From contig CALXHO010000017.1 in NCBI GenBank assembly GCA_944388125.1, forward strand, positions 1 through 39,584: DNA of 39,584 bases, written 5' to 3'. Shown here one piece after another: positions 9,189-30,465 of this stretch. Within the stretch, counting starts at the first letter, position 1, and each line of letters begins with the position of its first letter. The stretch is from an uncultured Gemmiger sp. (GTDB lineage Bacteria; Bacillota; Clostridia; Oscillospirales; Ruminococcaceae). Under the pieces are notes generated by a model. The model was not told where the DNA came from, made no database searches, and saw only the letters and a list, made by a program, of their open reading frames with translations. A program made the position numbers and the translations under genes.

Positions 9189-9213
9189 CCCCACACGAAA
9201 GCGAGGGATGCGC

Positions 9214-11300: not shown

Positions 11301-11353
11301 TCTTTCCCTTTGACTTTCCGTGCTTGCCGTATTGCTGAAAAAGGAGCTTTTTG

Positions 11354-12604: not shown

Positions 12605-12631
12605 TTGCTGCCGGAGAGAAAGGAGCCTCCC

Positions 12632-13918: not shown

Positions 13919-14915
13919 GCTCGCCCCCGTCAGTGTCATCATCCCCTGCTACAATGCGGCGGATACCCTGCGCCGGGCGGTGGACGGCGTTCTGGACGGG
14001 GCGCCCGCCAACCTGGAACTGCTGCTGGTGGACGACGGCTCCACCGACGCCACCCCCGCCCTGTGCGACGAGCTGGCCGCCGGGGACGGGCGCATCCGGG
14101 TGCTGCACCGCAAAAACGGCGGTGCTTCCGCGGCCCGCAACGCAGGTCTGGATGCCGCCCTGGGAGACTGGGTCCTCTTTGTGGACGCCGACGATACCCT
14201 GACCCCCGGCCTGTGGCAGGCGTTGGGGGAGGCGTTTGCAGCCGACCCGGGGATGGTGCTGTTCGGCATCGACCGGGCCAGCGGTCCCAATCCCTGTCCC
14301 CTGGCGCCGGGGTATTATGCCGATCCGTCCGCCCTGGGAAAGGCGCTGCGGCCCCTTCTGTTCGAGAGCGGCTATCTGGCCGCGCCCTACGGGAAGGTAT
14401 TCTCCGCCAGAGCGCTGCGCACCGCAGGAATGCACTTTGACGAGGCCCTCAAAGTCAACGAAGATGTGCTGTTCAACACAGTTTTTTTACAAAATACCAT
14501 TTCCATTTTCTGCCTGCCGGGTGTATACTATTACCAATATGATCAAAAGTGGGGATCTTTGTCCCGGCGCCTGCGGGGTGATCTGCTGAAAGCGGAAGCC
14601 CGCTGTGCCCCGGAACTAAAGACTATGCTGCTGCGCTGGGGATATCCCCCCGAATCCTTTCTCAGGGAAAGCCGTCTGCGGGCCTGTCTGAACCAGTACG
14701 GTCTGCTGACCGGCTGTCCGGGAAAAATGCCCTATGCGGAACGGCGGGCCCTGTTTGCCGAGATCCTGGCCCAGCCGGATGCCCGTGCCGCCCTGCAGGA
14801 GCAGCTTCGCCATGACGCCCACCCGCTGCTGGCCCTGCCGTACCGGCTGGGTGTCGCATGGAACCTGCCGGGGCTGCTGGCCGGGTATACACTTTTGAAA
14901 AACCGGTTTTTATGA
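13905..14915 (+). CDS. GT2 family glycosyltransferase
   Basis: This 336-residue GT-A glycosyltransferase has VSVIIPCYNAADTLRRAV at the N-terminus, DDGS at 43-46, NGGASAARNAG and the metal-binding DADD at 94-97. The acceptor part has PYGKVFSARAL and a VNEDVLFNTVF segment equivalent to that in the neighbouring GT2 genes. Around 14475-14560 the DNA becomes clearly richer in A and T than the rest of the gene. AAGGAG precedes the ATG at 13905, which overlaps the previous gene in another frame. Substrate unknown. Confidence 0.9.
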   Translation: MSTPELAPVSVIIPCYNAADTLRRAVDGVLDGAPANLELLLVDDGSTDATPALCDELAAGDGRIRVLHRKNGGASAARNAGLDAALGDWVLFVDADDTLTPGLWQALGEAFAADPGMVLFGIDRASGPNPCPLAPGYYADPSALGKALRPLLFESGYLAAPYGKVFSARALRTAGMHFDEALKVNEDVLFNTVFLQNTISIFCLPGVYYYQYDQKWGSLSRRLRGDLLKAEARCAPELKTMLLRWGYPPESFLRESRLRACLNQYGLLTGCPGKMPYAERRALFAEILAQPDARAALQEQLRHDAHPLLALPYRLGVAWNLPGLLAGYTLLKNRFL

Positions 14916-14974
14916 TAGAATTCTTCCGGCGCCGGACGGCGTCTTGATGAAATGCCATACACAAGGAGCGACCG

Positions 14975-15991
14975 ATGTCCACCCCGAGACTCAGCATCAT
15001 CACAACGGTATACGATGCCAAAGACTACCTGCCCGCCACAGTGCAGAGCATTCTGGCCCAGACCTTTGCGGATTTTGAGCTTCTGCTGGTGGAGGATGGC
15101 AGTCCCAACGGCTGCGGGGAACTCTGTGACGAGCTGGCCAGGCAGGATGTCCGCATCCGGGTATTCCACAAGCCCAACGGCGGTCCGGCCTCGGCGGCAA
15201 ACGTGGGGCTGGAAAATGCTCGGGGGGATTACATCGGCTTTGTGGATTCCGACGATCTCATCCAGCCGGATATGTATGCCCGGCTGTTCGCTGCGCTGGA
15301 GGCCCATCCCGGGGCCCGCCTGGCGGCCTGTGCCGGGGACGCCATCGACGACAGGGGAAATCCCATTCCCGGCCAGAAGGTTGCCTGTTCCCTTACCGGG
15401 GAATGCAACGCCATGGATCTGCTGCTGGAGACCTTCAAGACCGGCAGCTTTTACGGGCCGCTGAGCTGGAACAAACTGTTCGATGCCCGGCTGTTCCGGG
15501 ACAAGAACATCCGCTATGACGAGAGCATGTTCTTTGGCGACGACGCCAGCGTGCTCCATCTGGTATTTGAGGGAGAGCGGGCGGTCTGCCTGCCCGATGC
15601 ACTGTACCATTACCGCACCCGTGCCGGCCAGATGACCGGAGCTGTTTTTCCGCCCCGCAAGCTGGACGATCTGCGGATGTACTGGGACTGGCTGAGCTAT
15701 TTTGCAGCCCGGCCGGATTCCGAGGAATACTACCAATGGGCGGTTGCCTGGTATTGGAAGGTTTTTTATCAATTCTGGGTTTTGTCCGGCGAGGCAGGAA
15801 ATCTTGCCCAGCTCAAGCCCGGTTTTCTGAAACACAAAAAGCATCTGGACAGCCTGCTGCCCGACATTTTGCGGTGCCCGTACATCGCTGCGGGCGAAAA
15901 GGTCCGCGCCGTCCTGTTCATCGCCAGCCCCGGGCTGACCTGGCAGGCGGCCCGCACCTGGGGACGGCTTTGCAGATTTGGGAGGGGTTAA
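14975..15991 (+). CDS. GT2 family glycosyltransferase
   Basis: This 338-residue GT-A glycosyltransferase has LSIITTVYDAKDYLPATVQS at the N-terminus, EDGS at 40-43 (Glu in place of the first Asp), NGGPASAANVG and the metal-binding DSDD at 91-94. The acceptor half has LSWNKLFDARLF and FFGDDASVLHLVF, the same order as in its paralogues. AAGGAG lies six bases upstream of the ATG. It follows a 59-base gap that contains a small CCGGCGCCGG palindrome but no terminator. It is one of five GT2 paralogues in the operon; the specificity cannot be inferred. Confidence 0.9.
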   Translation: MSTPRLSIITTVYDAKDYLPATVQSILAQTFADFELLLVEDGSPNGCGELCDELARQDVRIRVFHKPNGGPASAANVGLENARGDYIGFVDSDDLIQPDMYARLFAALEAHPGARLAACAGDAIDDRGNPIPGQKVACSLTGECNAMDLLLETFKTGSFYGPLSWNKLFDARLFRDKNIRYDESMFFGDDASVLHLVFEGERAVCLPDALYHYRTRAGQMTGAVFPPRKLDDLRMYWDWLSYFAARPDSEEYYQWAVAWYWKVFYQFWVLSGEAGNLAQLKPGFLKHKKHLDSLLPDILRCPYIAAGEKVRAVLFIASPGLTWQAARTWGRLCRFGRG

Positions 15992-15995
15992 AACT

Positions 15996-16976
15996 ATGGA
16001 ACGTATCTGTGTGAGCGTGATCATTCCGATCTACAACACCAAAACCTGGCTGGAAGAATGCGTTCGGAGTGTTCTGGACCAGCAGTTCGATCAGCCGTTT
16101 GAAGTCATTCTGGTGGACGACGGCTCCACCGACGGCTGCAGCGAGCTCTGCGACGAATTCGCCAAAAAGGACGTCCGCATCCGGGTCATCCATCAGGAGA
16201 ACCAGGGCCTTTCCGCCGCCCGCAACACCGGTATTGATGCCGCCCAGGGCCGCTACTACGCCTTTGTGGACTCGGACGATATTCTGCGCCCTGCCTATCT
16301 GCAAAAGCTCTTTGACGCCTGCGAGAAGCATGACGCCTACATGGCCATCTGCGCCGTGGAGGACGTGCGGGAGGACGGCACCAGCGAGGAACCGCCTGCC
16401 TACACCATGCCCACCGAGGTGGGGGTGTTCACCGGCAAAGACCTGCTCAACAACTTCTATGCCGCCAACGGCACCTACTACACCGTGGCGTGGAACAAGC
16501 TCTACCGCGCCGAGGTATGGAAGCTGCTCCACTACCCTGAGGGCCGCCTGCATGAGGATGACTTCGTCGCCCACCGCCTGTTCTGGCGTTGCGACAAGGT
16601 GGTCTGCCTGGACGATCAGCTTTACTGCTACCGCCTGAGCAGCGGCAGTATCTGCCGTTCCAACATCAAGCCCGAGGCCTTCGATGCCGTGGACGGCCTG
16701 GCCGACCGCTACCGCTTCTTTGTGGAGAACGGCGCTGACCGCACTGTCATCGACTGCGCCTACGCGGCCTGCTGGCGGCGGTATCTCTTCCTCTGCGCCA
16801 AGGTGCGCCAGTCTCCCGAGCCTGCCCTGGTCAAGGCGATTTCCAAGGAACAGTTCCTGATGCAGGGACTCATCAGCTATCTGCCCAACTGCAAGCAGCT
16901 GAAAATGACCGAAAAACTGTCGGCCGCCCGCTGGTCCATGATGCCTGCGGAAAGCCTGTGCCCCGTAAAGAAGTAA
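15996..16976 (+). CDS. GT2 family glycosyltransferase
   Basis: This 326-residue GT-A glycosyltransferase has VSVIIPIYNTKTWLEECVRS, DDGS at 41-44, LSAARNTG and DSDD at 92-95. The acceptor part has VAWNKLYRAEVWK and LHEDDFVAHRLFW. Similar proteins make linear capsule or exopolysaccharide units, but the sugar used is not predictable. The ATG at 15996 has GGGAGGGG about eight bases upstream and starts four bases after the preceding stop, so the two are tightly linked. An in-frame upstream ATG at 15978 lacks a separate ribosome site. Confidence 0.91.
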   Translation: MERICVSVIIPIYNTKTWLEECVRSVLDQQFDQPFEVILVDDGSTDGCSELCDEFAKKDVRIRVIHQENQGLSAARNTGIDAAQGRYYAFVDSDDILRPAYLQKLFDACEKHDAYMAICAVEDVREDGTSEEPPAYTMPTEVGVFTGKDLLNNFYAANGTYYTVAWNKLYRAEVWKLLHYPEGRLHEDDFVAHRLFWRCDKVVCLDDQLYCYRLSSGSICRSNIKPEAFDAVDGLADRYRFFVENGADRTVIDCAYAACWRRYLFLCAKVRQSPEPALVKAISKEQFLMQGLISYLPNCKQLKMTEKLSAARWSMMPAESLCPVKK

Positions 16977-17011
16977 CGGGAAAAGTAATCTTTGTGTGAG
17001 GAGGCCCGGCC

Positions 17012-18232
17012 GTGCCGCTTGTCAAGCCGGACAAAAAAACGGAAAAGCGCCCCCGTGTGCTGCTGATTCCCCCTGCCGATCTGCCCGTGCCCGCGGTGCG
17101 CGGCGGCGCGGTGGAAACGCTCATCACCCATCTGATCCGGGAAAATGAGCGTCAGGGAAAGCTGGATCTTTTGTGCGCCAGTGTGCTGGACGCCGACGCC
17201 AAGGCGGCAGCCGCCGATCTGCGCTATACCAAAATGATGTACATTGCCCGTCCCCGGGGACACCGCCGCTACTGGCCCATGGTGTTCATCGAGCGGTGTT
17301 TCGGCGTGGCGGCGCCCTATGAGCCCTGGTATCAGAAGGTCCAGCTCTCGCTGGCGCTGGAGCTGCCCCCGCCCGACTGGATCGTCGCCGAGGGCGGCAA
17401 CCTGACCCAGTTCGGCGCCATCAGCCGCATGTTCGGCCGCAAGCGCTGCCTGGCCCATCTCCACGGCCTGACCCAGTGCAGCCGTCAGATGGATGACATC
17501 TACGGCGGCGTTCTGGCCCTGAGCGAATTTATCCGGAATGAGTACCTGAAAACCAGCACTTTGGACCGGAAAAATGCCTTTATTCTTCACAACTGCATCG
17601 ACACCCAACGGTTTACCCCCGGTGAGCCCGACGCCAGGCTGCGCGCTTCGCTCGGTTTTGCACCGGAGGATTTTGTTGTGCTGTTCTGCGGGCGGCTGGA
17701 ACCTGACAAAGGCATCCACCGTCTGCTGGAGGCCATCTCCTCCCTGTCCGACCCGCACATCAAGCTGCTCATTGTGGGCAGCCCCTTCTTCGGCCGCACC
17801 CAGTCCAGTCCTTTCCTGAAAAAGCTGGAGGCACAGGCCCGTGCCCTGGACAGCCGGGTCCGGTTCACCGGGTTCATCCAGAACGACAATCTGCCCGACT
17901 ACTACCGTCTGGCCGACCTGGTCTGCGTCCCCACCATGGTGCAGGAGGCCGCGGGCCTGGTGGCCATCGAGGCCATGGCCTGCGGCCGCCCGGTGCTGGC
18001 CACCCGCAGCGGCGGCATGCCGGAGTATCTGGCCGGCAGCCAGGCGGTGCTGGTGGATCTGAACCGGGACGTGGCCGGGCAGCTTGCCTGGGCCATTGAA
18101 ATGCTCCGCGACCATCCCGAACTGCGCGCCGAGATGGGCCGCGCCGGGGCTGAGGCCGCCAAACAGTTTTCGGTGGCAGCCTTTTACGACAACTTTGTCC
18201 GCATCCTGACCGAAATGGGGGAACGCACATGA
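17012..18232 (+). CDS. GT4 family glycosyltransferase
   Basis: This 406-residue GT-B retaining glycosyltransferase has VLLIPPADLPVPAVRGGAVE as its N-terminal strand and Gly-rich loop. The middle has AHLHGLTQCSRQM and ILHNCIDTQRF, both usual in GT4. The donor domain has FCGRLEPDKGIHRLLEAI, LLIVGSPFFG and EX7E in VQEAAGLVAIEAMACGRP, followed by the SGGMPEYL loop. The start is GTG at 17012 with GAGGAGG seven bases upstream. Its stop overlaps the next ATG (ATGA). Of the cluster's GT4 proteins it is the most canonical; the donor is unknown. Confidence 0.93.
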   Translation: MPLVKPDKKTEKRPRVLLIPPADLPVPAVRGGAVETLITHLIRENERQGKLDLLCASVLDADAKAAAADLRYTKMMYIARPRGHRRYWPMVFIERCFGVAAPYEPWYQKVQLSLALELPPPDWIVAEGGNLTQFGAISRMFGRKRCLAHLHGLTQCSRQMDDIYGGVLALSEFIRNEYLKTSTLDRKNAFILHNCIDTQRFTPGEPDARLRASLGFAPEDFVVLFCGRLEPDKGIHRLLEAISSLSDPHIKLLIVGSPFFGRTQSSPFLKKLEAQARALDSRVRFTGFIQNDNLPDYYRLADLVCVPTMVQEAAGLVAIEAMACGRPVLATRSGGMPEYLAGSQAVLVDLNRDVAGQLAWAIEMLRDHPELRAEMGRAGAEAAKQFSVAAFYDNFVRILTEMGERT

Positions 18233-19287
18233 AGTCCGCCGTCTGCGTCATTGTTCCGGTCTACAAGGCGGTGCACACCCTGGACCGCTGTGTGGAGAGT
18301 GTGCTCTGCCAGGAGGTTCCCGGCGGGGTCAGCTGCATCCTGGTGGACGACGGCAGCCCCGACGAATCGGGCGCCATGTGCGACGCCTGGGCCGCCCGGG
18401 ATCCCCGCATCCGGGTCATTCACAAGGAGGACGGCGGTGTTTCCAGTGCCCGGAACGCCGGGCTGGAAATTGCCGATGCCCGGTACATCGTCTTTCTGGA
18501 CTCCGACGATGCCCTGCGGGAGGGCGCACTGGAAGCCGCCCTCGCTGCGCAGCAAGAACACCCGGGCAGCTTTGTGATCTGGCACTACACTACCGATCTG
18601 CTGGACGATGCCCCCGCCGAGGGAGATGCTGCCCCGCGGCCGGCCTCGTCACTGGCTAGGCTGTATCTCGACTGTCTGATCGCCATGCCCTGGAACAAGC
18701 TCTACCGGGGGGATCTTCTGCGGGAGCTTCGATTTGACGAATCGTATACCCTTGGAGAGGATTTACAATTTGTATTGGATTACATTGCCTGCCTGAACCG
18801 TGAAAGCAAAAACTGGTCCTTTGCCGTGGTGGACGCCCCCCTGACCTGGTACAACTGTGATAATACCGGCACCAGTCTTTCCACCCGCTATCACGACGAT
18901 TACTGCGACATCTGGCCCCGGCATTTTGCCAAGCTCAATGCCGCCTGTGACGCCGTGGGTGCCCCGCAGGAGGATCTGCTGCCCCTCCACCGGGCCGAGC
19001 TCACCGTCCTGGCCGAGGGCGCCGCCGACATTCTGCGGCGGGATCCCTCCCCTGCCGGGCTGCGCCGGGACAAGGCCGACAAGGCGCTGTCCGGGACCTG
19101 GCTGCGGGGTCTTTTGAAAACCATGCGCCGGGAGAAAAACTACTCCGCCTACTATCTCCCGGTGTGGTGGCGCAACCTGCACCTGCTCTACTCCATGGCC
19201 GAGGCCCGCCGCCTGAACAAGCCGCTGTACGGCAAGATGGACTGGCTGGGGTATTACCTGTTTCTGGGACGGCGCCGCCGGGAGTGA
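18229..19287 (+). CDS. GT2 family glycosyltransferase
   Basis: This 352-residue GT-A glycosyltransferase has VCVIVPVYKAVHTLDRCVES, DDGS at 40-43, DGGVSSARNAG and DSDD at 91-94. The acceptor half contains MPWNKLYRGDLL and LGEDLQFVLDYIA. A short AT-rich patch (about 18740-18790) falls at the same structural point as in the GT2 gene at 13905. It is the last gene of the operon, joined to the previous one by an ATGA overlap and followed after about 145 bases by a strong terminator. Substrate unknown. Confidence 0.91.
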   Translation: MKSAVCVIVPVYKAVHTLDRCVESVLCQEVPGGVSCILVDDGSPDESGAMCDAWAARDPRIRVIHKEDGGVSSARNAGLEIADARYIVFLDSDDALREGALEAALAAQQEHPGSFVIWHYTTDLLDDAPAEGDAAPRPASSLARLYLDCLIAMPWNKLYRGDLLRELRFDESYTLGEDLQFVLDYIACLNRESKNWSFAVVDAPLTWYNCDNTGTSLSTRYHDDYCDIWPRHFAKLNAACDAVGAPQEDLLPLHRAELTVLAEGAADILRRDPSPAGLRRDKADKALSGTWLRGLLKTMRREKNYSAYYLPVWWRNLHLLYSMAEARRLNKPLYGKMDWLGYYLFLGRRRRE

Positions 19288-21234: not shown

Positions 21235-21277
21235 AGGCGTGTATATGAATTTTTGCGAAAGTACAGGTAATGAATCT

Positions 21278-22153
21278 ATGGCGGAACAACTGCAGACCAA
21301 CGCCTCCAACGGCGAATGGACCACCATTATCCGTCCCCGCACCGGCTGGTTTGACATCGACCTGCAGGAGCTGTGGCGGTATCGCGACCTGATCGTCCTG
21401 TTTGTCAAGCGCAACTTTGCCGTGCTGTACAAGCAGACCATTCTTGGCCCGGCATGGGTGCTTCTCAACCCGCTGCTGACCAGCGTGCTCTTTAACGTAG
21501 TGTTCGGCGGCATTGCGGGCCTTTCCACCGACGGCACCCCCTCCTTCCTGTTCTACATGGCGGGCAATACCGTCTGGACCTTTTTCTCCAGCTGCATCAA
21601 CAATACCGCCAACACCTTTGTGGCCAACAGCCAGGTGTTCGGCAAGGTGTATTTTCCCCGGCTCACCATGCCCATCAGCCAGGCGTTGACCAGCCTCATC
21701 AACTTCCTGATTCAGGCGGCCATGTTTGTGCTGTTCTGGCTCTATTTCTTCTTCACCGGGGCGGATATTCACCTCACCGCCTGGATGTGGGCTGTTCCGC
21801 TGGTGCTGGTCCAGACCATGCTGCTGGGCCTGGGTGTGGGCATCATCGTCTCCAGCCTGACCACCAAGTACCGTGACCTGGCCATCGCCGTCAGCTTCGG
21901 CGTACAGCTGTGGATGTATGTTTCCCCCGTGGTCTACCCGCTGTCCACCCTGGGAGAAAGTCCCCGCCTCGCCTTTTTGATGCGTCTCAATCCCATGACC
22001 GCCCCCATCGAGATTTTCCGCACCGCCACGCTGGGTACCGGCTCGGCGGAAATGGGGATGTTCGTGTACAGTCTGGTGTTCACCGCCGTGGCCCTTGTCC
22101 TGGGCGTGGTGCTGTTCAGCCGGATCGAAAAAACCTTTATGGACACGGTGTAA
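21278..22153 (+). CDS. Polysaccharide ABC exporter, ABC-2 type permease (Wzm/TagG-like)
   Basis: This 291-residue membrane subunit would move an undecaprenyl-linked polysaccharide out of the cell. The cytoplasmic N-terminus holds the coupling segment LWRYRDLIVLFVKRNFAVLY, then YKQTILGPAWVLLNPLL, which is characteristic of the Wzm/TagG/RgpC family. About six hydrophobic segments follow, with VFGKVYFPRLTMP in a conserved cytoplasmic loop and WMYVSPVVYPLS near the end. I chose the ATG at 21278 because AGGTAA lies upstream and the promoter start (about 21241) rules out the GTG at 21239. The ATPase partner starts 10 bases downstream. In a Gram-positive the cargo could be a teichoic-acid-like or rhamnan-like wall polymer. 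Confidence 0.93.
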   Translation: MAEQLQTNASNGEWTTIIRPRTGWFDIDLQELWRYRDLIVLFVKRNFAVLYKQTILGPAWVLLNPLLTSVLFNVVFGGIAGLSTDGTPSFLFYMAGNTVWTFFSSCINNTANTFVANSQVFGKVYFPRLTMPISQALTSLINFLIQAAMFVLFWLYFFFTGADIHLTAWMWAVPLVLVQTMLLGLGVGIIVSSLTTKYRDLAIAVSFGVQLWMYVSPVVYPLSTLGESPRLAFLMRLNPMTAPIEIFRTATLGTGSAEMGMFVYSLVFTAVALVLGVVLFSRIEKTFMDTV

Positions 22154-22163
22154 GGGGGCAGCT

Positions 22164-23453
22164 ATGGCATCCAACAACAGAACGCCCGTCATCCAGGTGA
22201 CGGGGCTGAAAAAGCAGTACAAGCTGGGCCAGATCGGCGGCGGCACCCTGACCCACGACCTTCAGAGCTGGTGGGCGCGTGTCCGCGGCAAGGAGGACCC
22301 CAACACCGTCATCGGCACCGATACCCGGCTGTTCGGCCAGACCTTCATGGCCCTCAATGGGGTAGATCTCACCGTCTACCAGGGGGAAGCCCTGGGCATC
22401 ATCGGCCGCAACGGAGCAGGTAAGTCCACCCTGCTCAAGATCCTCTCCCGCATCACCGCCCCCACCGAGGGCGAGATCCGGCTGAAAGGCCGGGTGGCCA
22501 GCATGCTGGAAGTGGGCACCGGTTTCAACAACGAGATGACCGGCCGGGAAAACATCTACATGAACGGCGCCATCCTGGGCATGACCAAGGCCGAGGTGGA
22601 CGCCAAGCTGGATCAGATCATCGAATTTTCCGAGTGTGGGGACTTCATCGACACCCCCGTCAAGCGGTATTCCAGCGGTATGTTCGTCAAGCTGGCCTTC
22701 GCTGTGGCGGCCCATCTGGACAGCGAGATCATGGTCATGGACGAGGTCCTGGCCGTGGGCGACATGAAGTTCCAGCAGAAATGCCTGGGCAAAATGAGCG
22801 ACGTGGCCGGTCAGGAAGGCCGCACCGTCCTCTATGTCAGCCACAACATGTCCACCATCCGCCAGCTGTGCACCCGCTGCGTGGTGCTGGACAAGGGCCG
22901 GGTCATCTTTGACGGCGACGTGGAACAGGCCATTGCCGTCTACATGGATACCACCGACGTCAACGTGGTCCACTACGACCTGGCCGACGTCTCCCGCATG
23001 AACCAGAGCGCGGGCAAGCGGCTGCGCCTGGAGACCCTGGACTTTGTGGACAAAGAATCCAGCGTCTTTGCCGACACCGAGAAAATGCGCATCCGCATCA
23101 CCTGGCGGGTGTCCGAACCCTTTGCCGGGGTGCACATGAAGATGAATCTGCATTACCGGGATTCCTCCCCCGTGGGCATCACCCACCCGGTGGACCTGGG
23201 CCCCGCCCAGCCCGGAAAGCTGTATGTCTCCGAATTCGAGTTTGACCCGTCGCTTTTGGGCGAGGGCCAGTATTTCTTCTATCTCGACATCTTCGACGGT
23301 GCCCTGGCCCAGGCGGTCTGTCTGGACAAGCCGGTCACCGAGTTTGCCTTTGAGGTCACCAGCGGCGACCTCTCCATGCCCGAGTGGGCCTCCGGCTGGG
23401 GCCGTATCCACTTCCCGCCGGTCAAGGTGCTGACCTCGGGGGCGGAGGGATGA
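22164..23453 (+). CDS. Polysaccharide ABC exporter, ATPase with C-terminal glycan-binding domain (Wzt-like)
   Basis: This 429-residue protein drives export of a lipid-linked polysaccharide. Walker A is GRNGAGKST at 81-89, the signature is the modified YSSGM at 169-173 (usual for Wzt/TagH), Walker B is IMVMDEVLAVGD at 189-200, and the switch His lies in LYVSHNMS. Residues from about 270 to the end form an extra domain (RITWRVSEPFAGVHMKMNL, GEGQYFFYLDIFDG) of the Wzt C-terminal type, a beta-sandwich that in O-antigen exporters reads the chain terminus. AAGGGGG precedes the ATG at 22164. The next gene starts three bases after the stop. TagH and RgpD are alternative relatives; the extra domain favours Wzt. 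Confidence 0.93.
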   Translation: MASNNRTPVIQVTGLKKQYKLGQIGGGTLTHDLQSWWARVRGKEDPNTVIGTDTRLFGQTFMALNGVDLTVYQGEALGIIGRNGAGKSTLLKILSRITAPTEGEIRLKGRVASMLEVGTGFNNEMTGRENIYMNGAILGMTKAEVDAKLDQIIEFSECGDFIDTPVKRYSSGMFVKLAFAVAAHLDSEIMVMDEVLAVGDMKFQQKCLGKMSDVAGQEGRTVLYVSHNMSTIRQLCTRCVVLDKGRVIFDGDVEQAIAVYMDTTDVNVVHYDLADVSRMNQSAGKRLRLETLDFVDKESSVFADTEKMRIRITWRVSEPFAGVHMKMNLHYRDSSPVGITHPVDLGPAQPGKLYVSEFEFDPSLLGEGQYFFYLDIFDGALAQAVCLDKPVTEFAFEVTSGDLSMPEWASGWGRIHFPPVKVLTSGAEG

Positions 23454-23456
23454 GGG

Positions 23457-24443
23457 ATGGCAAAGCCGGATCTTTACATCTGCCACACCGCCTATCACCT
23501 GCTCATCGCCCTGGTACGCGCCCTGCGCGCGGGGGGCGGGCAGGCGGTCTGGCTCAGCGAGCAGCTGCCCGACGCCGAGGCCCTGGCGGCTTCCCATAAG
23601 CTGGACGGCATTTTTTCCGAAGTCTGTGTCCTGCACGAGTCCCGCTGGCAGGGAACCGTCACCGGTCCCCTTGCCCACATCCGCAACCGCCGGGCTTACG
23701 AGAAGGCCGGTGCCGGGCCGGTGCTGGACAAGCATGCCTACCATACCATCTACATCAGCAACGACTGGAGCGCGGTGGGGCGGTATCTTCAGGACTGCCG
23801 GGCGCCCTACACTCTCTGTGAGGACACCCTGGGCGGCACGCTGGACCCCGACCAGCATCTGCTGGACGAGCAGCGTACTGCCCCCGATTTCAAGGCCCGC
23901 CGCGAGGGGCAGGGCTACCTCTACTGGGGGGACAGCTCCGTCTGCCAGGCCGTGGAGAGCGAGAACGCCTCCCAGTGCGTGCTCTTTCCGCCGGAAAAGC
24001 TTCTGACCTTTTCCAAGGCGGAGCTTCTGGAAAGCCTGTCCGATGAGGAGAAGGCCGCCGTGCGCAAGGTCTTTCTGACAAGGCCGCTGCCGGACGATCC
24101 TGCGGTTTTCTCCCGGGCGACCCTTTTGCTGCCCCGCAGTTTTGTGGACGACGGCCGCATGGACCAGGACACCCAGAACCGGATGTTCCAGGCCGTGGCC
24201 AGGCAGTATGCCGACGGTCCCCTCTTCATCAAGACCCATCCCCGGGATACCACCGATTACGGCGCACTGTTTCCCGACGCGGTGGTCCTGGAGCGCACCA
24301 TGCCCAGCGAGGTGCTGAATTTCTGTCTGCCGGGCAAGTTCCGCCGGGCGGTCACGGTGCAGAGCTGGGTACTGCGGGGCTTCACCGCCGCGGAGGAGAA
24401 CATCTTCCTCTCGCTGGAGGACGCTCTGGCCCTGATTGGATGA
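23457..24443 (+). CDS. GT52/polysialyltransferase-like glycosyltransferase
   Basis: This 328-residue protein resembles the GT-B sialyltransferase-type families GT52 and polysialyltransferase. The evidence is the start DLYICHTAYHLLIALVRALR, an acidic pair in TLCEDTLGGTLD (where these families have an Asp/Glu-Asp/Glu-Gly motif), FIKTHPRDTTDY holding the conserved His-Pro, and LERTMPSEVLNF before the C-terminal VQSW. Such enzymes normally use CMP-activated acidic sugars. A KdsB-like CMP-sugar synthetase lies two genes downstream, which supports that donor class (inference). The Gly after the acidic pair is replaced by Thr, so catalysis may differ. It starts three bases after the Wzt-like gene. 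Family assignment is from motif order only and is less sure than for its neighbours. Confidence 0.68.
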   Translation: MAKPDLYICHTAYHLLIALVRALRAGGGQAVWLSEQLPDAEALAASHKLDGIFSEVCVLHESRWQGTVTGPLAHIRNRRAYEKAGAGPVLDKHAYHTIYISNDWSAVGRYLQDCRAPYTLCEDTLGGTLDPDQHLLDEQRTAPDFKARREGQGYLYWGDSSVCQAVESENASQCVLFPPEKLLTFSKAELLESLSDEEKAAVRKVFLTRPLPDDPAVFSRATLLLPRSFVDDGRMDQDTQNRMFQAVARQYADGPLFIKTHPRDTTDYGALFPDAVVLERTMPSEVLNFCLPGKFRRAVTVQSWVLRGFTAAEENIFLSLEDALALIG

Positions 24444-24492
24444 TGGTTGTTCCGCTTTTCTCTTTCCCAACGCAGAAAGGATGGCGAAGCTG

Positions 24493-24753
24493 ATGTTCTG
24501 GCACAAGGTACAGCGCTTTTTGGCCATTGCCATGGGTGCCTTTTTCGGCATCTTTCTGGGGTATTGTCTGTGGACGGCATGGGACCATATGGCCCGCCCC
24601 GAATTGTATGCCATGAACTCCGCCCCCTGGTGGGTGGGGGTGCTGGTCTATGGCATCGGCTGTGCTATCTGTGAGCTGGTGCTGCTGGCCGGCTGGCTGT
24701 TCGCCCGTTTCCGGGCAGGGAAAGTTTCTCCGCCCGATTCAGACAAAAAATGA
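24493..24753 (+). CDS. Small membrane protein of unknown function
   Basis: I do not recognise this protein. It has 86 residues if the ATG at 24493 is used. Two hydrophobic segments (FLAIAMGAFFGIFLGYCLW and WWVGVLVYGIGCAICELVLL) are joined by a short loop with WDHMARPELY, and a basic, Ser/Asp-containing tail ends in DSDKK. AAAGGA lies 11-12 bases upstream; an in-frame ATG at 24481 would touch that site and is less likely. It sits between the GT52-like gene and the cytidylyltransferase in the export operon, so it could be a membrane partner of the glycan machinery. No function can be assigned. Confidence 0.7.
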   Translation: MFWHKVQRFLAIAMGAFFGIFLGYCLWTAWDHMARPELYAMNSAPWWVGVLVYGIGCAICELVLLAGWLFARFRAGKVSPPDSDKK

Positions 24754-24777
24754 TGGACCACTGAACGATCCCGGCTG

Positions 24778-24848
24778 GTCCTGTCCCCCTGCTGCGGCAG
24801 ACAGGACGGAGCGATCCGGGCGGAGATTGGGATTCTCGTTTCTCCGCC
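24778..24848 (+). other. Two hairpins between the small membrane protein and kdsB-like genes
   Basis: GTCCTGT (24778-24784) pairs with ACAGGAC (24801-24807), with an inner CTGC/GCAG stem. GGCGGAGA (24819-24826) pairs with TCTCCGCC (24841-24848). Neither has a U tract, so they are not plain terminators. They lie in the longest gap (132 bases) of this operon and may mark RNA processing. Confidence 0.55.
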
Positions 24849-24885
24849 GGAGTTGCCCCGCCGGGCAGAAAGGACATGTTCTGTT

Positions 24886-25629
24886 ATGAAAACCATTGCT
24901 GTGATTCCCGCACGGTACCAGAGCTCCCGCATGCCGGGCAAGCCGCTGGCCGATATTCTGGGCCGTCCCATGATCTGGTGGGTCTGGCAGGAGGCCAAAA
25001 AGTGTGCCGCCCTGGACGATGTGGTCATCGCCACCGACGACGGGCGCATTGCCGAGGCCTGCCGCCAATACGGCATGGAATACTGCATGACCAGCCCCGA
25101 CCACGACACCCCCACCGGGCGCATCTGGGAGGTCAGCACCCGGGTGGAGGCCGATCTCTATCTGCAGGTCATGGGGGATGAGCCTCTCATCAACGTGAAG
25201 GCCTTTGACCTGATCCTGCCCAGGACCCTGCCCGACGATCCCTACTATGTGGCGGTGCTGACCAACATCATGGAGCACCCCGCCGATGTCATCGACTTTT
25301 CCAACCAGAAGGTGGTCACCAATGCAGCCCGGGAGATCCTGATGATCTCCCGCAGTCCCATCCCCTACCCCAAGGGAACGCTGGACTTTGAGTACGAAAA
25401 AGTCACCGGCATCCAGCTGTACAGCCGTCAGGCGCTGGCCTTCTACCACGATACCCCCAAGTCGCTGCTGGAGCGGGCTGAGGAGAACGATATGATGCGC
25501 TTTGTGGAAAACGGCCACAAGGTGCATGCCATCGTCAGCCCCTACAAGACCGTGAGCGTCGACACCCCGAAAGATCTCACCCTGGTCGCCCGCATCCTCA
25601 CCGAGCGCGGCGCGGCTGTTCAGGATTGA
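24886..25629 (+). CDS. KdsB-like CMP-ulosonate cytidylyltransferase
   Basis: This 247-residue enzyme should couple a 3-deoxy-2-ulosonic acid to CMP using CTP. The nucleotide-binding start IPARYQSSRMPGKPL (residues 7-21) is the classic KdsB pattern. LQVMGDEPLI, with the metal-binding Asp at about 98, and VDTPKDL near the C-terminus also match KdsB rather than NeuA. The usual sugar-binding SGTDR-like segment reads TPTGRIWEV, which suggests a different sugar. A Gram-positive cell has no lipid A needing Kdo, so the product is probably another ulosonate (inference). The ATG at 24886 has AAGGA about 11 bases upstream. The aldolase and phosphatase genes follow directly. Confidence 0.87.
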   Translation: MKTIAVIPARYQSSRMPGKPLADILGRPMIWWVWQEAKKCAALDDVVIATDDGRIAEACRQYGMEYCMTSPDHDTPTGRIWEVSTRVEADLYLQVMGDEPLINVKAFDLILPRTLPDDPYYVAVLTNIMEHPADVIDFSNQKVVTNAAREILMISRSPIPYPKGTLDFEYEKVTGIQLYSRQALAFYHDTPKSLLERAEENDMMRFVENGHKVHAIVSPYKTVSVDTPKDLTLVARILTERGAAVQD

Positions 25630-25682
25630 ATCTCACACAACATTTCATCGCAGTTCTTCTGCCCAAAAGGAGGCATTTTACC

Positions 25683-27254
25683 ATGGGAGACATCAAACTG
25701 CTTGACTGCACGCTGCGCGACGGCGGCTACGTCAACGACTGGAAGTGGGGCTTTTCCCCCGCCCGGGACATCATCCGCACCCTGACCCGTGCCGGGGTGG
25801 ACATCGTTGAAGTGGGTTTTCTGCGCAACGTGGCCGAGTACGACCCCAACATCACCGTCTGCAACACCATTGAGGAGCTCAACCGCCTGCTGCCCGACGA
25901 TCCCCGGGGAACCATGTACTCCGGCATGGCCATGCGCTCCAATTACGACATCAGCAAGCTGTCCGAGTACCAGGGCAAGGGTATCGAGATGATCCGTATC
26001 ACCGCCCACGACTACGACATCCGGGACGGCATGGACTTTGCCCGGGAGGTCAAGGCCCGGGGCTACAAACTGTCCATCAACCCCATCAACATCATGGGCT
26101 ATTCCGACAAGGACATTCTCTGGATCCTCGACCAGGTCAACGCCATCATGCCCTACCAGTTCTCCATCGTGGACACCTTCGGCAGCATGCGCCGCCGGGA
26201 TCTGGAGCGCATTGTCAGCCTGGTGGACCACAACCTTGACCCGTCCATCCGGGTGGGGCTGCACCTCCACGAGAACATGGCCCTGAGCTTCTGCCTGGCT
26301 CAGGAATTCATCGACAAGCATCTGGCCCGGGACATCACCGTGGACGCCAGCCTCATGGGCATGGGCCGCATTCCCGGCAACCTGCCCATCGAGCTCACCG
26401 CCGATTACATGAACGAGACCTGCGGCGGGCACTACGACATCGACGAGCTGATGGACGCCATCCAGGACCACATCGCCCCCATCAAGGGTCAGCCCGAATG
26501 GGGCTATACCCCGGCCTACTTCCTGTCCGCCCGCTACAACCTGCACCGCAACTATGCCGAGCACTATCTGGCCAAGGGCGATCTGACCAACCGGGACATC
26601 AACCACATTCTGTCGGTGCTGGACCGCTCCAAGGCCACCGCCTTCGACAAGGAATACGCCGACAAACTCTACCAGGAATATCAGAGCCGCCAGATCGACG
26701 ACACCGCCGCCATGCAGGAGCTGACCCAGGCGTTCCAGGGCCGCACTGTGCTGGTGCTGGCCCCCGGCGCCACCCTGGCCGACCCCGACGTCCAGGATAA
26801 ACTCAAGGCCCTGCGCGGCAAGGAGGCAGATGTGGTGGTCTCGGCCAACTTCCTGCCGGAGTTTCTCACCCCGGACTTTGCCTTCTTCACCAACAGCAAG
26901 CGGCTGGACAAGATCTCCGCCTTCCCCTGCCCGGCGGTGCTTACCTCCAACCTGCGGCCCGACGTTGCCCCGGCTGACTGCCGCACCGTCAACTACAACC
27001 GCGTGGCCGGAGCCTTCGCCCAGGGCAGCAACAGCGTCATCATGCTGCTGCGGCTGCTCTCCCAGTGCGGCGCCAGGGCTGTGCTGCTGGCCGGTGCCGA
27101 CGGCTACCCCGCCGGCAAGCCCGCCTATGCGGACACCAGCCTCCATGCCCACACCGGGCGGGACCATGCCTTCCATGCCGCCATGGCCGAGGCCATCCGC
27201 ACGGCAGGCATTCCGGTGACCTTTGTCACCCCCAGCGCCTATCAGAATGCCTGA
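25683..27254 (+). CDS. HMGL/DmpG-like pyruvate aldolase fused to a C-terminal Rossmann-like domain
   Basis: This 523-residue protein has two parts. Residues 1 to about 300 are a DRE-TIM metallolyase barrel: LLDCTLRDGGY at 6-16 with the metal-binding Asp13, VGLHLHEN with the HxH pair at 194-196, and GMGRIPGNLPIEL. The closest known type is the 4-hydroxy-2-oxovalerate aldolase group, which joins or splits pyruvate and an aldehyde. Residues 350-523 form a second domain (VLVLAPGATLADPDV, FAFFTNSKRL, GSNSVIMLLRLLSQCG, VLLAGADGY) whose pattern resembles DUF115/GT42-like Rossmann folds. Flanked by KdsB-like and KdsC-like genes, it probably makes a 3-deoxy-2-ulosonate by aldol addition of pyruvate to a sugar (inference). 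AAGGAGG precedes the ATG. Confidence 0.83.
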   Translation: MGDIKLLDCTLRDGGYVNDWKWGFSPARDIIRTLTRAGVDIVEVGFLRNVAEYDPNITVCNTIEELNRLLPDDPRGTMYSGMAMRSNYDISKLSEYQGKGIEMIRITAHDYDIRDGMDFAREVKARGYKLSINPINIMGYSDKDILWILDQVNAIMPYQFSIVDTFGSMRRRDLERIVSLVDHNLDPSIRVGLHLHENMALSFCLAQEFIDKHLARDITVDASLMGMGRIPGNLPIELTADYMNETCGGHYDIDELMDAIQDHIAPIKGQPEWGYTPAYFLSARYNLHRNYAEHYLAKGDLTNRDINHILSVLDRSKATAFDKEYADKLYQEYQSRQIDDTAAMQELTQAFQGRTVLVLAPGATLADPDVQDKLKALRGKEADVVVSANFLPEFLTPDFAFFTNSKRLDKISAFPCPAVLTSNLRPDVAPADCRTVNYNRVAGAFAQGSNSVIMLLRLLSQCGARAVLLAGADGYPAGKPAYADTSLHAHTGRDHAFHAAMAEAIRTAGIPVTFVTPSAYQNA

Positions 27255-27297
27255 ACCGGCGCAAATCCTGCAATACTCAAGCAAAGGACGTGATGGC

Positions 27298-27822
27298 ATG
27301 ATCCGCCTGCTGGTACTGGACGTGGACGGCACCATGACGGACGGCGGCGTCTACTATGACGCTTCCGGCAACGAACTGAAAAAATTTGCGATCAAGGACG
27401 GCGCAGGCATTGTCCTGGCCCGGGCGGCAGGCATCCAGATCATGATCTGCACCGGGCGGGAGTGCGAGGCGGTGCGCCGCCGGGCTTCCGAGCTGCACGT
27501 AGACCATCTGTATCAGAATGTCTCCGACAAGGCTGGTTTTCTGGGGCAGTTTCTCACCGGGCATGGCTTTGCCCGGGAGGAAGTCGCCTACTGCGGGGAT
27601 GACCTGAATGATCTGGGCGCCATGGCCCTGTGCGGCTTCGTGGCCTGCCCCGCCGATGCCAGCCCCGAGGTGCTGGCCCGGGCGGACTGCCGCTGTCCCC
27701 AGAAAGGCGGCGAGGGCTGCGTCCGCGGCGCGGTGGAGGCCATCCTCCGCCGGGACGGCCGCTGGGCCGAGGCGGTGCACAAGGCCTTCGGCGTCACGTT
27801 GGAAACCGGCTGCGGCCGATAA
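27298..27822 (+). CDS. KdsC-like HAD phosphatase
   Basis: This 174-residue HAD enzyme has the KdsC/YrbI layout without a cap domain: LLVLDVDGTMTDGGVYYD with nucleophile Asp8 and acid/base Asp10, the Lys-rich KKFAIKDGAGIVLA, the Thr of MICTGRE, and GDDLNDLGAM with the metal-binding Asp pair. KdsC removes the 8-phosphate from Kdo-8-phosphate, and close relatives act on sialic-acid and KDN phosphates. Here it would dephosphorylate the aldolase product before CMP activation (inference). AAAGGA lies about nine bases upstream of the ATG at 27298. It follows the aldolase gene by 43 bases and precedes the DUF2142 gene by 12. Confidence 0.9.
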   Translation: MIRLLVLDVDGTMTDGGVYYDASGNELKKFAIKDGAGIVLARAAGIQIMICTGRECEAVRRRASELHVDHLYQNVSDKAGFLGQFLTGHGFAREEVAYCGDDLNDLGAMALCGFVACPADASPEVLARADCRCPQKGGEGCVRGAVEAILRRDGRWAEAVHKAFGVTLETGCGR

Positions 27823-27834
27823 CAGGAGCGGTCC

Positions 27835-30465
27835 ATGACAGTCTCAATCAAAACCTTTTATCAGAAACACCGGCACACCATCGTAGCCCTCGGGGCGGCG
27901 GCGGTGTGCTTTGCCGTTTTTCTTCTCTGCTGGTTCGTCTCCATCCGCGGACTGGGAACCAAGGCTCTTTCCCAAAAACTGAGCGACGATTACTCGGTCT
28001 ACTACCCGGTGGAGGGCAGCGTCAGCCAGAGTTTTGTCTTTGACGAGGATCTGCTGGCCATGGCCTTTGTCTTTGGCGTGGAGGGGGAACAGCCCACCGG
28101 CACCCTTGACCTGGTGCTCACCGACGCCGACACCGGCGAGGTTCTGGCGCAAAGCCAGGGCGTGATGGCAAACATTCTCTCCGGGCAGTATACCGGCCTC
28201 GGCCTCGATACTGCCGTCACCGGCGTGGAAGGGCGGCACTACCTGGTGACCCTGACCCCCCACTATGAGGGCAGCGGCCGGCTGAGCATCGGCTGCTCGT
28301 CCACCGCCACCCTGTGGCAGGAGACCATGACAGTGGACGGGCAGACCCCCGATGCCACCGCCTCCCTGATCGTGACCTACCAGCAGATCGGCGGATTCCT
28401 GACGCGGTATTACTGGCTGGTCGCCCTGGTGGTCCTGGCTATCGTCTTTTTCGGGGTTCGGTCGGCCCTGCGCCGCCGCATTGCACTGCACCGGCTGGTG
28501 TTTGCCCTCATCCTTGCCCTGGGCGTAGCCTATACCCTGGTCCTGCCGCCCTACGGTGCCCCCGATGAAAAGTATCACATCAACCAGTCCTTTACCCTGG
28601 CCTGCCGCTGGGCCAATGTCTTTTCCTCCGAGAACTGGGAGATGGGCCATGTTCCCATCAACATGAGTTACCGGCGGGAGCACGATTTCAACGCCGCGTT
28701 GCAGGATCAGGAGGAAGGCACCACCGTCTGGGCCTGGCAGGCTTTTGCCGACGGCATGTTCACCCTCTCTCCCGACGACTTTGACAGCCACATGTCCCTG
28801 GAGGAGGCTCAGACCGACTCCAACCCCATCCTCTACCTGCCCAGCGCAGTAGCGGTGTTTGCGGGCTTCCTGCTCCATCTCGGCTTTGTACCGGTGCTGG
28901 TGTTGGGGCGACTGGCAAACCTTGTCTGCTTTGCAGCACTGGCGGCCGCGGCCGTGCGGTTTGCGCCTTTCGGAAAACGGGTCTTCGCCGCTGCGGCGCT
29001 GCTGCCCATGACGCTGCATCTGGCGGCATCCTTCTCCCGGGATTCCCTGCTGCTGGGGCTTTGTTTTGCCTTTACCGCGCTGTGTCTGCGGGCCGCTTTC
29101 GGGGAAAAGGCTCCCGGCCGGTTTTTGCTGATTGCCATTGCCTTGGCGGGGCTGCTGTTCTGCCCCGGCAAGGCGGTCTATCTGCCGCTGGCTGCCCTGG
29201 TGCTGCTGATCCCGTCCAGACGTCTGCCGCTGCCCCGGCCCGGGTTCTGGAAAGCCGGATTTCTGGCCGCCTGTGTGGTGCTGACCCTCTGCGTCAACAG
29301 CTCCATGCTCGGCTTTGCGGTTGCCGGTGAGACACAACCGCCTGCCGAAACAGAAACGCAGCAATCTCAACCGGCCCAAGAAGCCGCCGGTGTCCTCTCT
29401 GCAACAGAACCCCTGCACGGAGCCCCCGCTGTCCAAGATACCGCCGCCGCGGCAGACGACACAGCTTCCGCCGCATCGGACAGTACCCTGATCGTCCGTG
29501 ATGATCTGACGGAAAACACCGTCGAAAACTATGTCCGCCGCCTGTTCTGGTATGCGGAAGGTGTGGAGGATCCCCCGCAGGCGGAGGTCACCTTCTGGGC
29601 GGACGCTCTGCAAAACGGAGATGTGACCGCCGCCATGCTGGCGCAGAGTTTCTTTTTCAGCCCGGCCGAGATGGATACTCCGACGCTTTCAGATGAAGAC
29701 TTCATCCGTGCCCTTTCCCTCTGTCTGCTGGACCGTGCTCCCACGGACGATGAGCTGCCGAACTGGCTCTCAACACTGCAAACCAACGGCCGGATCCTGC
29801 TCTTCAAGGCCCTGTATTCTCATCCCGAGACCAGTGCGCTGTTTGCGTCCGGCGGCGTGACGGTGGGCATCGAGGATGATACCCGCTATCCCCTGGACCG
29901 GGAGGATCTGGCACAGGACGTAGAGGCCGCCATCGCCACGCGGGAAAGCCAGAGCGTCGCCACCGGAGATGACGCCATCTGCTACACCCCCGGGTATATC
30001 CTGTCCCACCCGGTGGATACCCTGCGTCTGCTGGTGTGCACTGTCATTGAAAATACCGACCATTATATCTGTACCCTGGTAGGCGGCAGTCTGGGATATT
30101 ACTCCCTCGACCTGGCATGGGGCTGGCTCATGGTGCTCTATCTGCTGCTGGCCTGGGCCATGCTGACCGCGGATGTCACGCCGCTGCGGGGGCGGGCGCG
30201 GGGTTGGGCCTTCGCCCTCTTTCTGCTGTGCTGCGCTCTCTCGGTGGCGGGCTGCCTGACCTGGACCCCCACCTACTCCGAGACGCTCTACGGCCTGCAG
30301 GGGCGCTATTTCCTGCCGGTGCTGCCGCTGGGACTGCTGTGCCTGGCGCCCCGGACCATCCGCATCTCCGATACCGCCCGCGCCGAAAGCGGCCTTGTCT
30401 GCGCTTTGTGCCTGGCCAACGCCGGTGTGCTGCTCAACGCCATGCTGGCCATTGTGGCCCAGTAA
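27835..30465 (+). CDS. DUF2142 polytopic membrane protein with an inserted DUF4214-like domain
   Basis: This is an 876-residue membrane protein. After one N-terminal helix (about 16-36) an extracytoplasmic beta-rich region runs to about 185. Multiple hydrophobic helices follow. The DUF2142 signature PPYGAPDEKYHINQSF lies at about 238-253, an acidic loop typical of GT-C-like proteins. Between helices, residues 498-556 are a low-complexity Ala/Glu/Gln/Asp linker. Residues 557-672 (VENYVRRLFWYAEGV, FWADALQNGDVTAAMLAQSF, FIRALSLCLLDRAPTDDELP) resemble the DUF4214 helical module. The last helices include YGLQGRYFLPVLPLGLL. It probably modifies or transfers glycans outside the membrane, but no activity is proven for either domain. 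It starts 12 bases after the phosphatase gene. Confidence 0.85.
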   Translation: MTVSIKTFYQKHRHTIVALGAAAVCFAVFLLCWFVSIRGLGTKALSQKLSDDYSVYYPVEGSVSQSFVFDEDLLAMAFVFGVEGEQPTGTLDLVLTDADTGEVLAQSQGVMANILSGQYTGLGLDTAVTGVEGRHYLVTLTPHYEGSGRLSIGCSSTATLWQETMTVDGQTPDATASLIVTYQQIGGFLTRYYWLVALVVLAIVFFGVRSALRRRIALHRLVFALILALGVAYTLVLPPYGAPDEKYHINQSFTLACRWANVFSSENWEMGHVPINMSYRREHDFNAALQDQEEGTTVWAWQAFADGMFTLSPDDFDSHMSLEEAQTDSNPILYLPSAVAVFAGFLLHLGFVPVLVLGRLANLVCFAALAAAAVRFAPFGKRVFAAAALLPMTLHLAASFSRDSLLLGLCFAFTALCLRAAFGEKAPGRFLLIAIALAGLLFCPGKAVYLPLAALVLLIPSRRLPLPRPGFWKAGFLAACVVLTLCVNSSMLGFAVAGETQPPAETETQQSQPAQEAAGVLSATEPLHGAPAVQDTAAAADDTASAASDSTLIVRDDLTENTVENYVRRLFWYAEGVEDPPQAEVTFWADALQNGDVTAAMLAQSFFFSPAEMDTPTLSDEDFIRALSLCLLDRAPTDDELPNWLSTLQTNGRILLFKALYSHPETSALFASGGVTVGIEDDTRYPLDREDLAQDVEAAIATRESQSVATGDDAICYTPGYILSHPVDTLRLLVCTVIENTDHYICTLVGGSLGYYSLDLAWGWLMVLYLLLAWAMLTADVTPLRGRARGWAFALFLLCCALSVAGCLTWTPTYSETLYGLQGRYFLPVLPLGLLCLAPRTIRISDTARAESGLVCALCLANAGVLLNAMLAIVAQ

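Follow-up and report, generated by a model that had tools for sequence, protein, structure and literature searches.

A putative CMP-ulosonate operon of Gemmiger in which a fused DmpG-like aldolase occupies the place of KdsA and KdsD

The routes to 3-deoxy-D-manno-oct-2-ulosonic acid (Kdo), sialic acid, and 2-keto-3-deoxynononic acid (KDN) begin with a phosphoenolpyruvate (PEP)-dependent synthase. In the classical route to Kdo activated with cytidine monophosphate (CMP), encoded in capsule and lipopolysaccharide loci, the enzymes are KdsD, KdsA, KdsC, and KdsB. The locus described here lies on contig CALXHO010000017.1 of an uncultured Gemmiger sp. (assembly GCA_944388125.1), positions 1 to 39,584 of which were analyzed and are referred to as the window. 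With the classical pathway it has in common the KdsB-like and KdsC-like steps, the order of the genes, and the locus slot, but it is without KdsA and KdsD, and instead of a PEP synthase it encodes a pyruvate aldolase fused to a C-terminal domain, here called AldC. The NeuB routes to sialic acid, legionaminic acid, and KDN likewise extend the chain by three carbons, use a related haloacid dehalogenase (HAD) phosphatase, and activate the product with CMP; NeuB itself depends on PEP and belongs to a different family from the aldolase.

The aldolase is a distant relative of DmpG. The barrel fold, the metal ligands, and the enolate-binding arginine are common to it and the 4-hydroxy-2-oxovalerate aldolases DmpG/BphI. 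Unlike those enzymes, it falls far below the family cut-off (TIGR03217, 60.9 bits vs 286), has tyrosine for the catalytic histidine, and carries AldC in addition, and no aldehyde dehydrogenase was found among ten scanned neighbor proteins. The nearest solved relatives of the barrel, by sequence and by predicted-model fold, are DmpG-type enzymes and, closest in both respects, the putative aldolase 3dxi (BVU_2661 of Bacteroides vulgatus, N-terminal domain only solved), for which we know of no function. Known families cover only the first 300-330 or so of the 523 residues. The nearest named records are from Gemmiger gallinarum (95% aldolase identity) and Candidatus Gemmiger faecavium (94%). In Gemmiger gallinarum DSM 109015 (L035), each protein of the locus between Wzm and KdsC, these two included, shares 93-100% identity with its window counterpart. 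Capsule loci that carry classical kdsA, kdsB, and kpsF together have been described (PMC6008488), and a Bacillus genomic island is reported to have kdsB, kdsC, kdsD, and kdsA (PMC4744853), so that Kdo genes in Gram-positive bacteria are not new in themselves. Full-text searches of open-access papers, a coverage outside which most subscription papers fall, brought up none recognized as describing a DmpG-like aldolase in a CMP-ulosonate route, and the available portions of PMC9736851 and PMC3989065 contained nothing on one.

The operon probably makes a CMP-3-deoxy-2-ulosonate for a surface glycan exported by an ATP-binding cassette (ABC) transporter, with the aldolase condensing pyruvate with a phosphorylated sugar (a pentose 5-phosphate being likeliest). 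The original prediction had described three adjacent genes for a KdsB-like cytidylyltransferase, an aldolase, and a KdsC-like phosphatase, and all three open reading frames (ORFs) were confirmed and matched to these families:

24886..25629, + strand, KdsB-like cytidylyltransferase, 247 residues (PF02348, 1.3e-38; NF003952, 212.6 over a cut-off of 193)
25683-27254, + strand, aldolase, whole ORF, 523 residues (PF00682, 4e-14)
25683..26672, + strand, aldolase barrel AldN, residues 1-330, DRE-TIM type (PF00682; 3dxi and DmpG by sequence and fold)
26673..27251, + strand, AldC, C-terminal domain fused to the aldolase, about 190 residues, claimed by no Pfam family
27298..27822, + strand, KdsC-like HAD phosphatase, 174 residues (TIGR01670, 129.8 over 106.95)

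The sequence AAAAGGAGG precedes the aldolase ATG at 25683.

The strongest evidence for the role of the aldolase came from two genomes of the same genus, G008 and G127, whose loci are nearly collinear. The order in both is glycosyltransferases, Wzm, Wzt, GT52, KdsB, either KdsA-KdsD or the aldolase, KdsC, DUF2142, and onward; kdsB-kdsA-kdsD of G008 is exchanged for kdsB'-aldolase in G127. The surrounding proteins are close to one another (Wzm 95% identical, Wzt 94%, KdsC 88%, DUF2142 81%, and 92-99% further downstream). Because kdsB-kdsA-kdsD was exchanged while the same phosphatase stayed, the aldolase appears to make a phosphorylated 3-deoxy-ulosonate acceptable to a phosphatase of the Kdo-8-phosphate type. 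The original prediction had assigned the condensation normally catalyzed by KdsA or NeuB to a pyruvate aldolase, and this is supported, as the aldolase and the KdsA-KdsD pair fill the same slot beside KdsB.

This linkage was examined in evenly drawn samples of 148 genomes of the family and 391 of the class, with G000 and G112 in both. Of the family genomes, 35 had an aldolase match and 20 a KdsB-like match (both at E ≤ 1e-20); one of the latter, a partial match in G087 (73 bits, half length), was excluded, which left 19 full-length KdsB-like genes. By coordinates, 18 of these directly adjoined a fused aldolase, and the adjacency on which the prediction depended is therefore conserved in relatives. 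The nineteenth, that of G008, adjoined the sole KdsA and the sole KdsD over cut-off in the 148 genomes. The class sample contained ten KdsB genes (E ≤ 1e-40), eight of them next to an aldolase and one, in G389, next to KdsA. The KdsB-aldolase neighborhood is far beyond chance. KdsA was found over cut-off in three genomes (G008, G389, and G348), each time with KdsD adjoining, and none of the three had an aldolase match at the limits used. In G348, the cytidylyltransferase paired with KdsA-KdsD-KdsC is of the NeuA type, which is also the second type found with the aldolase. The fused aldolase also adjoins KdsB on a Bacteroidales contig and on a plasmid of the alphaproteobacterium Leisingera caerulea. 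Label changes on a KdsB tree were no rarer than in shuffles, and nothing was drawn from this tree, in which the L043 end branch was about 10 long, the KdsB piece used for it probably having come from the wrong frame or range. These genomes show directly which genes make up the set, that the set is conserved, and that it is exchanged with KdsA-KdsD.

The residues of the barrel were compared in an alignment of 80 rows, 55 from fused and 25 from unfused aldolases. R12, D13, and H194 were present in every row with a letter at that position, and H196 in all but one unfused row. By alignment with DmpG, R12 is presumably the enolate-binding arginine, and D13, H194, and H196 are taken to be metal ligands. 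The metal and enolate residues, the loss of which would have told against a pyruvate enzyme, are kept across the alignment. Assignment to the DRE-TIM pyruvate type held for the barrel; the second domain, AldC (26673-27251), had been overlooked. On these residues, and with Tyr16 in place of the DmpG catalytic histidine, the pyruvate chemistry looks kept and the acceptor side looks different. The full-length structure model had a predicted template modeling score (pTM) of 0.55, so it was used for the barrel only and AldC was modeled apart.

The wider context of the fused enzyme was mapped in 55 fused loci gathered by similarity to the window protein, a set that includes near-identical Gemmiger loci and is not an unbiased sample; the 55 fused rows of the alignment were chosen by a different rule (L142 in, L061 out). 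Home-made profiles were used, with limits of 400 bases for the cytidylyltransferase and KdsC, 6000 for glycosyltransferases, and 3000 for others. An annotated HAD of L080, HAD genes of L120 and L121, and KdsC of L138 lie further off and are missed by these limits, and the contig of L060 begins at the aldolase gene. The scoring gene caller missed or split KdsB in L053, L059, and L123 and KdsC of L042, all of which were recovered by a six-frame profile scan. An adjacent cytidylyltransferase was found in 41 of the 55 loci (31 KdsB, 10 NeuA-type). Among these 41, 22 had an adjacent KdsC, seven had another HAD phosphatase within 3 kb, and 27 had a GT52- or polysialyltransferase-like gene within 6 kb. 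No locus had both a cytidylyltransferase and a thiamine pyrophosphate (TPP) enzyme, and two, L131 and L052, had neither; the L052 contig begins at the aldolase. KdsA and KdsD were not found nearby in any of the 55. By comparison, 3 of 26 unfused aldolases had an adjacent cytidylyltransferase. Because the mapped contexts differ, some with a cytidylyltransferase and others with a TPP enzyme, the fused enzyme serves more than one glycan pathway as a module for chain extension, CMP activation being its commonest partner in this set.

The TPP-enzyme loci (L062, L063, L118, L126-L130, L133, L135, L137, and L140) included an RfbH/DegT-like gene in six of the twelve and a HAD phosphatase in five; there the fused aldolase may provide a 2-keto acid for the synthesis of branched-chain sugars. 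Several other arrangements were noted. In L066 (5785-7536) an IspD-type cytidylyltransferase is fused to the aldolase N-terminus, as determined by scanning, and the same fusion was judged by size, sequence, or tree in L143, L144, and L145; the next gene in these four resembles a D-2-hydroxyacid dehydrogenase by eye. A PfkB-type sugar kinase (PF00294) lies directly downstream of the fused aldolase in L051 (10358-11383) and, by profile match, in L116. One contig (L041, 1242-10130) has two aldolases, one fused and one unfused, and three cytidylyltransferases, and on a Desulfobaculum bizertense plasmid (L079, NZ_CP090010.1) a short aldolase relative follows rfbH and two transketolase halves.

On these computational comparisons, the aldolase very probably makes the 3-deoxy-2-ulosonate phosphate on which KdsC and KdsB then act. 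We infer what reacts in the first step, its stereochemistry, and all of the activities. The barrel would hold the pyruvate enolate by a divalent metal (D13, H194, and H196) and R12, and the enolate would add to a sugar-phosphate aldehyde, most likely a pentose 5-phosphate, to give 3-deoxy-oct-2-ulosonate 8-phosphate (Kdo-8-phosphate or an epimer) without PEP. The KdsC-like phosphatase would strip the phosphate and so pull the reversible aldol step forward, the KdsB-like enzyme would couple the ulosonate to CMP, the GT52-like enzyme would transfer it, and Wzm/Wzt would export the glycan. The product had been predicted to be an unknown CMP-3-deoxy-2-ulosonate; a CMP-ulosonate remains the probable product, and the acid need not be wholly unknown, as the KdsA/KdsD exchange and the retained KdsC make a Kdo-like octulosonate most likely.

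A number of observations weigh against this interpretation. Between G008 and G127, KdsB is only 39% and GT52 79% identical, and one glycosyltransferase just before Wzm is 37% identical among upstream genes that are otherwise 93-99% identical. With KdsB replaced and GT52 drifted, the sugar therefore need not be identical in the two genomes. The window KdsB scores 119.9 against a cut-off of 155.2 for the kdsB equivalog TIGR00466, and the window phosphatase scores slightly higher as a KDN-9-phosphate phosphatase (140.6, cut-off 180) than as the KdsC equivalog NF007019 (132.1, cut-off 208), both scores being below cut-off. The DmpG catalytic histidine is Tyr16 in the window aldolase, and tyrosine is found there in 49 of the 53 fused rows with a letter; the unfused copies of G457 and L041 have histidine. 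The KdsB of G158, on a short contig, adjoins neither an aldolase nor KdsA. Twelve of the 55 fused loci have a TPP enzyme within 3 kb and no adjacent cytidylyltransferase, 12 of the 41 cytidylyltransferase-linked loci had no phosphatase scored within the limits, and G327 has an unfused aldolase, a cytidylyltransferase, and KdsC, yet neither KdsD nor AldC.

The replaced KdsB, the drifted GT52, and the scores of the window KdsB and phosphatase would all suit an enzyme with the same role and a product of another chain length, the aldehyde being erythrose 4-phosphate, a hexose 6-phosphate, or unphosphorylated and the product a 3-deoxy-heptulosonate, a KDN-like nonulosonate, or an undescribed ulosonate. 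So would the distribution of KdsD, which was absent over cut-off from all 46 fused-aldolase genomes examined (23 from each sample; G056 had a fragmentary match below cut-off). This alternative is nevertheless unlikely, since KdsC was kept at 88% across the exchange, KdsD stands beside the aldolase of G457, and 7 of 11 aldolase-linked KdsB proteins pass the kdsB equivalog cut-off (L054, L048, L050, L051, L036, L139, and L117 pass; L049, L122, the window, and Leisingera fail). For these reasons, together with the KdsA-KdsD exchange itself, an eight-carbon product is favored.

The prediction had also turned on whether a kdsA or neuB gene with a matching role exists elsewhere in the genome. No KdsA was found over cut-off in this draft (86.75% complete), in which the best match, in a 341-residue frame, had 117 bits vs 314, nor in the congener G054 (98% complete), and there was no KdsD match in the own genome at E ≤ 1e-15. 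Genes of the 3-deoxy-D-arabino-heptulosonate 7-phosphate synthase family on contigs C9 (117 vs 314) and C106 (no KdsA match at E ≤ 0.001) were considered as KdsA and rejected. A NeuB does exist, but it is in a separate cluster on contig C4, and the aldolase cluster has no NeuB-type synthase. The C4 cluster (L115, 7971-14154) encodes NeuB (463.7 over 399.65), NeuC (369.2 over 235.9), and cytidylyltransferase-like and sugar-1-phosphate nucleotidyltransferase-like proteins. The presence of this NeuB, and of aldolase relatives in loci without a cytidylyltransferase, would allow the aldolase to make some other 2-keto acid for glycan decoration while an unseen supplier of ulosonate, such as NeuB, feeds KdsB. 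This is very improbable: NeuB was rejected as the supplier, having its own NeuC and cytidylyltransferase-like gene, and the aldolase is tightly linked to KdsB and occupies the very slot of KdsA-KdsD.

The genes on either side of the three are consistent in strand:

21239..22153, + strand, Wzm-like ABC export permease (PF01061, 7.7e-19), a position common to relatives
22164..23453, + strand, Wzt-like ABC export ATPase (PF00005, 4e-22; Wzt_C match below gathering score)
23457..24443, + strand, GT52-like glycosyltransferase, presumed user of a CMP-sugar (PF07922, 26.6 vs a gathering score of 26.1 bits)
27835..30465, + strand, DUF2142 membrane protein, downstream in the same gene run (PF09913, 9.1e-36), its position kept in many relatives

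Further GT4 and GT2 genes are downstream on the same strand. The GT52-like gene had been noted just upstream of the three, and this was borne out: the window protein passes the family score narrowly, PF07922 is matched at E ≤ 0.01 by all 12 proteins from this position (the window protein among them), and K259 and H261-D264 are invariant among them. Between the GT52-like gene and kdsB there is a membrane-like ORF of 105 codons (24436-24753) with no family match, present in L035 (97%) and not called in the other 12 compared loci. Upstream of the export genes, a run of ORFs at 9208-19287 on the + strand resembles glycosyltransferases by eye.

AldC had no Pfam match over gathering score in the eight members scanned. 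A model built from eight sequences had a mean predicted local distance difference test score of 83.9 and a pTM of 0.86. Foldseek against the PDB gave eight matches at E ≤ 0.001, all to MptE-type hydroxymethyldihydropterin pyrophosphokinase of M. jannaschii, SteA, or the sialyltransferase ST8SiaIII (E 1e-4, template modeling scores of 0.43-0.50), and 11 matches at the same limit in a viral structure library included four named MptE-like; one of the eight members also had a match to PF01973 (0.07). The predicted fold of AldC appears to be MptE/sialyltransferase-like. A sugar isomerase (SIS) fold was considered and rejected, with no SIS among the families listed for the eight members or the PDB matches shown at E ≤ 0.001. 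Three of the eight had a weak match to D-lyxose isomerase (best 0.0024), which is a beta-barrel family, unlike the AldC model. Polar residues suggestive of a working site, N389, R407, S422, N423, N450, and D473, are kept in 49-54 of the 55 fused rows.

Given this fold and these residues, it is quite possible that AldC is a nucleotide- or nucleotide-sugar-binding domain, for feedback control or CMP-ulosonate transfer, unrelated to KdsD. Against this stand the 12 AldC loci that have a TPP enzyme and no adjacent cytidylyltransferase, G457, which has a cytidylyltransferase and no AldC, and the C-terminal stretch, which has no conserved histidine in the 21 rows compared. A relation to KdsD was considered from its distribution. 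AldC was found only fused to the aldolase in the 148 genomes (23 genomes, one match each). The aldolase of G457 is without AldC, none was found anywhere in that genome, and KdsD is encoded directly downstream (TIGR00393, 307.9 over 203.7), 60-64% identical to the KdsA-linked KdsDs. In the aldolase tree, the G457 aldolase is sister to the fused L048 (100/97) within the clade holding the window protein. KdsD where AldC is missing is a pattern seen in this single case, and AldC may stand in for KdsD; G327, whose unfused aldolase goes with neither, and the 12 AldC loci of the TPP-enzyme kind weigh against this. The distribution of KdsD suggests that AldC serves the aldolase, either supplying its aldose phosphate or making KdsD unnecessary. 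In the boldest version, the fused protein would be a two-step synthase from ribulose 5-phosphate and pyruvate to Kdo-8-phosphate or an epimer, with AldC as an arabinose-5-phosphate isomerase on a sialyltransferase/MptE-like instead of a SIS fold feeding the barrel, so that one gene would replace kdsD and kdsA and Kdo would be made without PEP; this is doubtful. Nucleotide-sugar binding, aldose-phosphate formation, and mere shaping of the enzyme are all candidate roles for AldC.

The comparisons support a variant of a known route with one uncharacterized domain. What AldC does can be tested directly by way of the KdsA-KdsD exchange and the G457 variant. If the proposed pathway is correct, it would be a pyruvate-dependent entry to ulosonates in gut Bacillota, on a Bacteroidales contig, and on an Alphaproteobacterial plasmid, where the fused-aldolase gene is annotated as 'aldolase catalytic domain-containing protein', and would provide an enzyme that makes 3-deoxy-ulosonates from pyruvate. 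It would also explain the KdsB and KdsC genes in genomes without KdsA, and such bacteria would be predicted to carry Kdo-like acids on their surface glycans.

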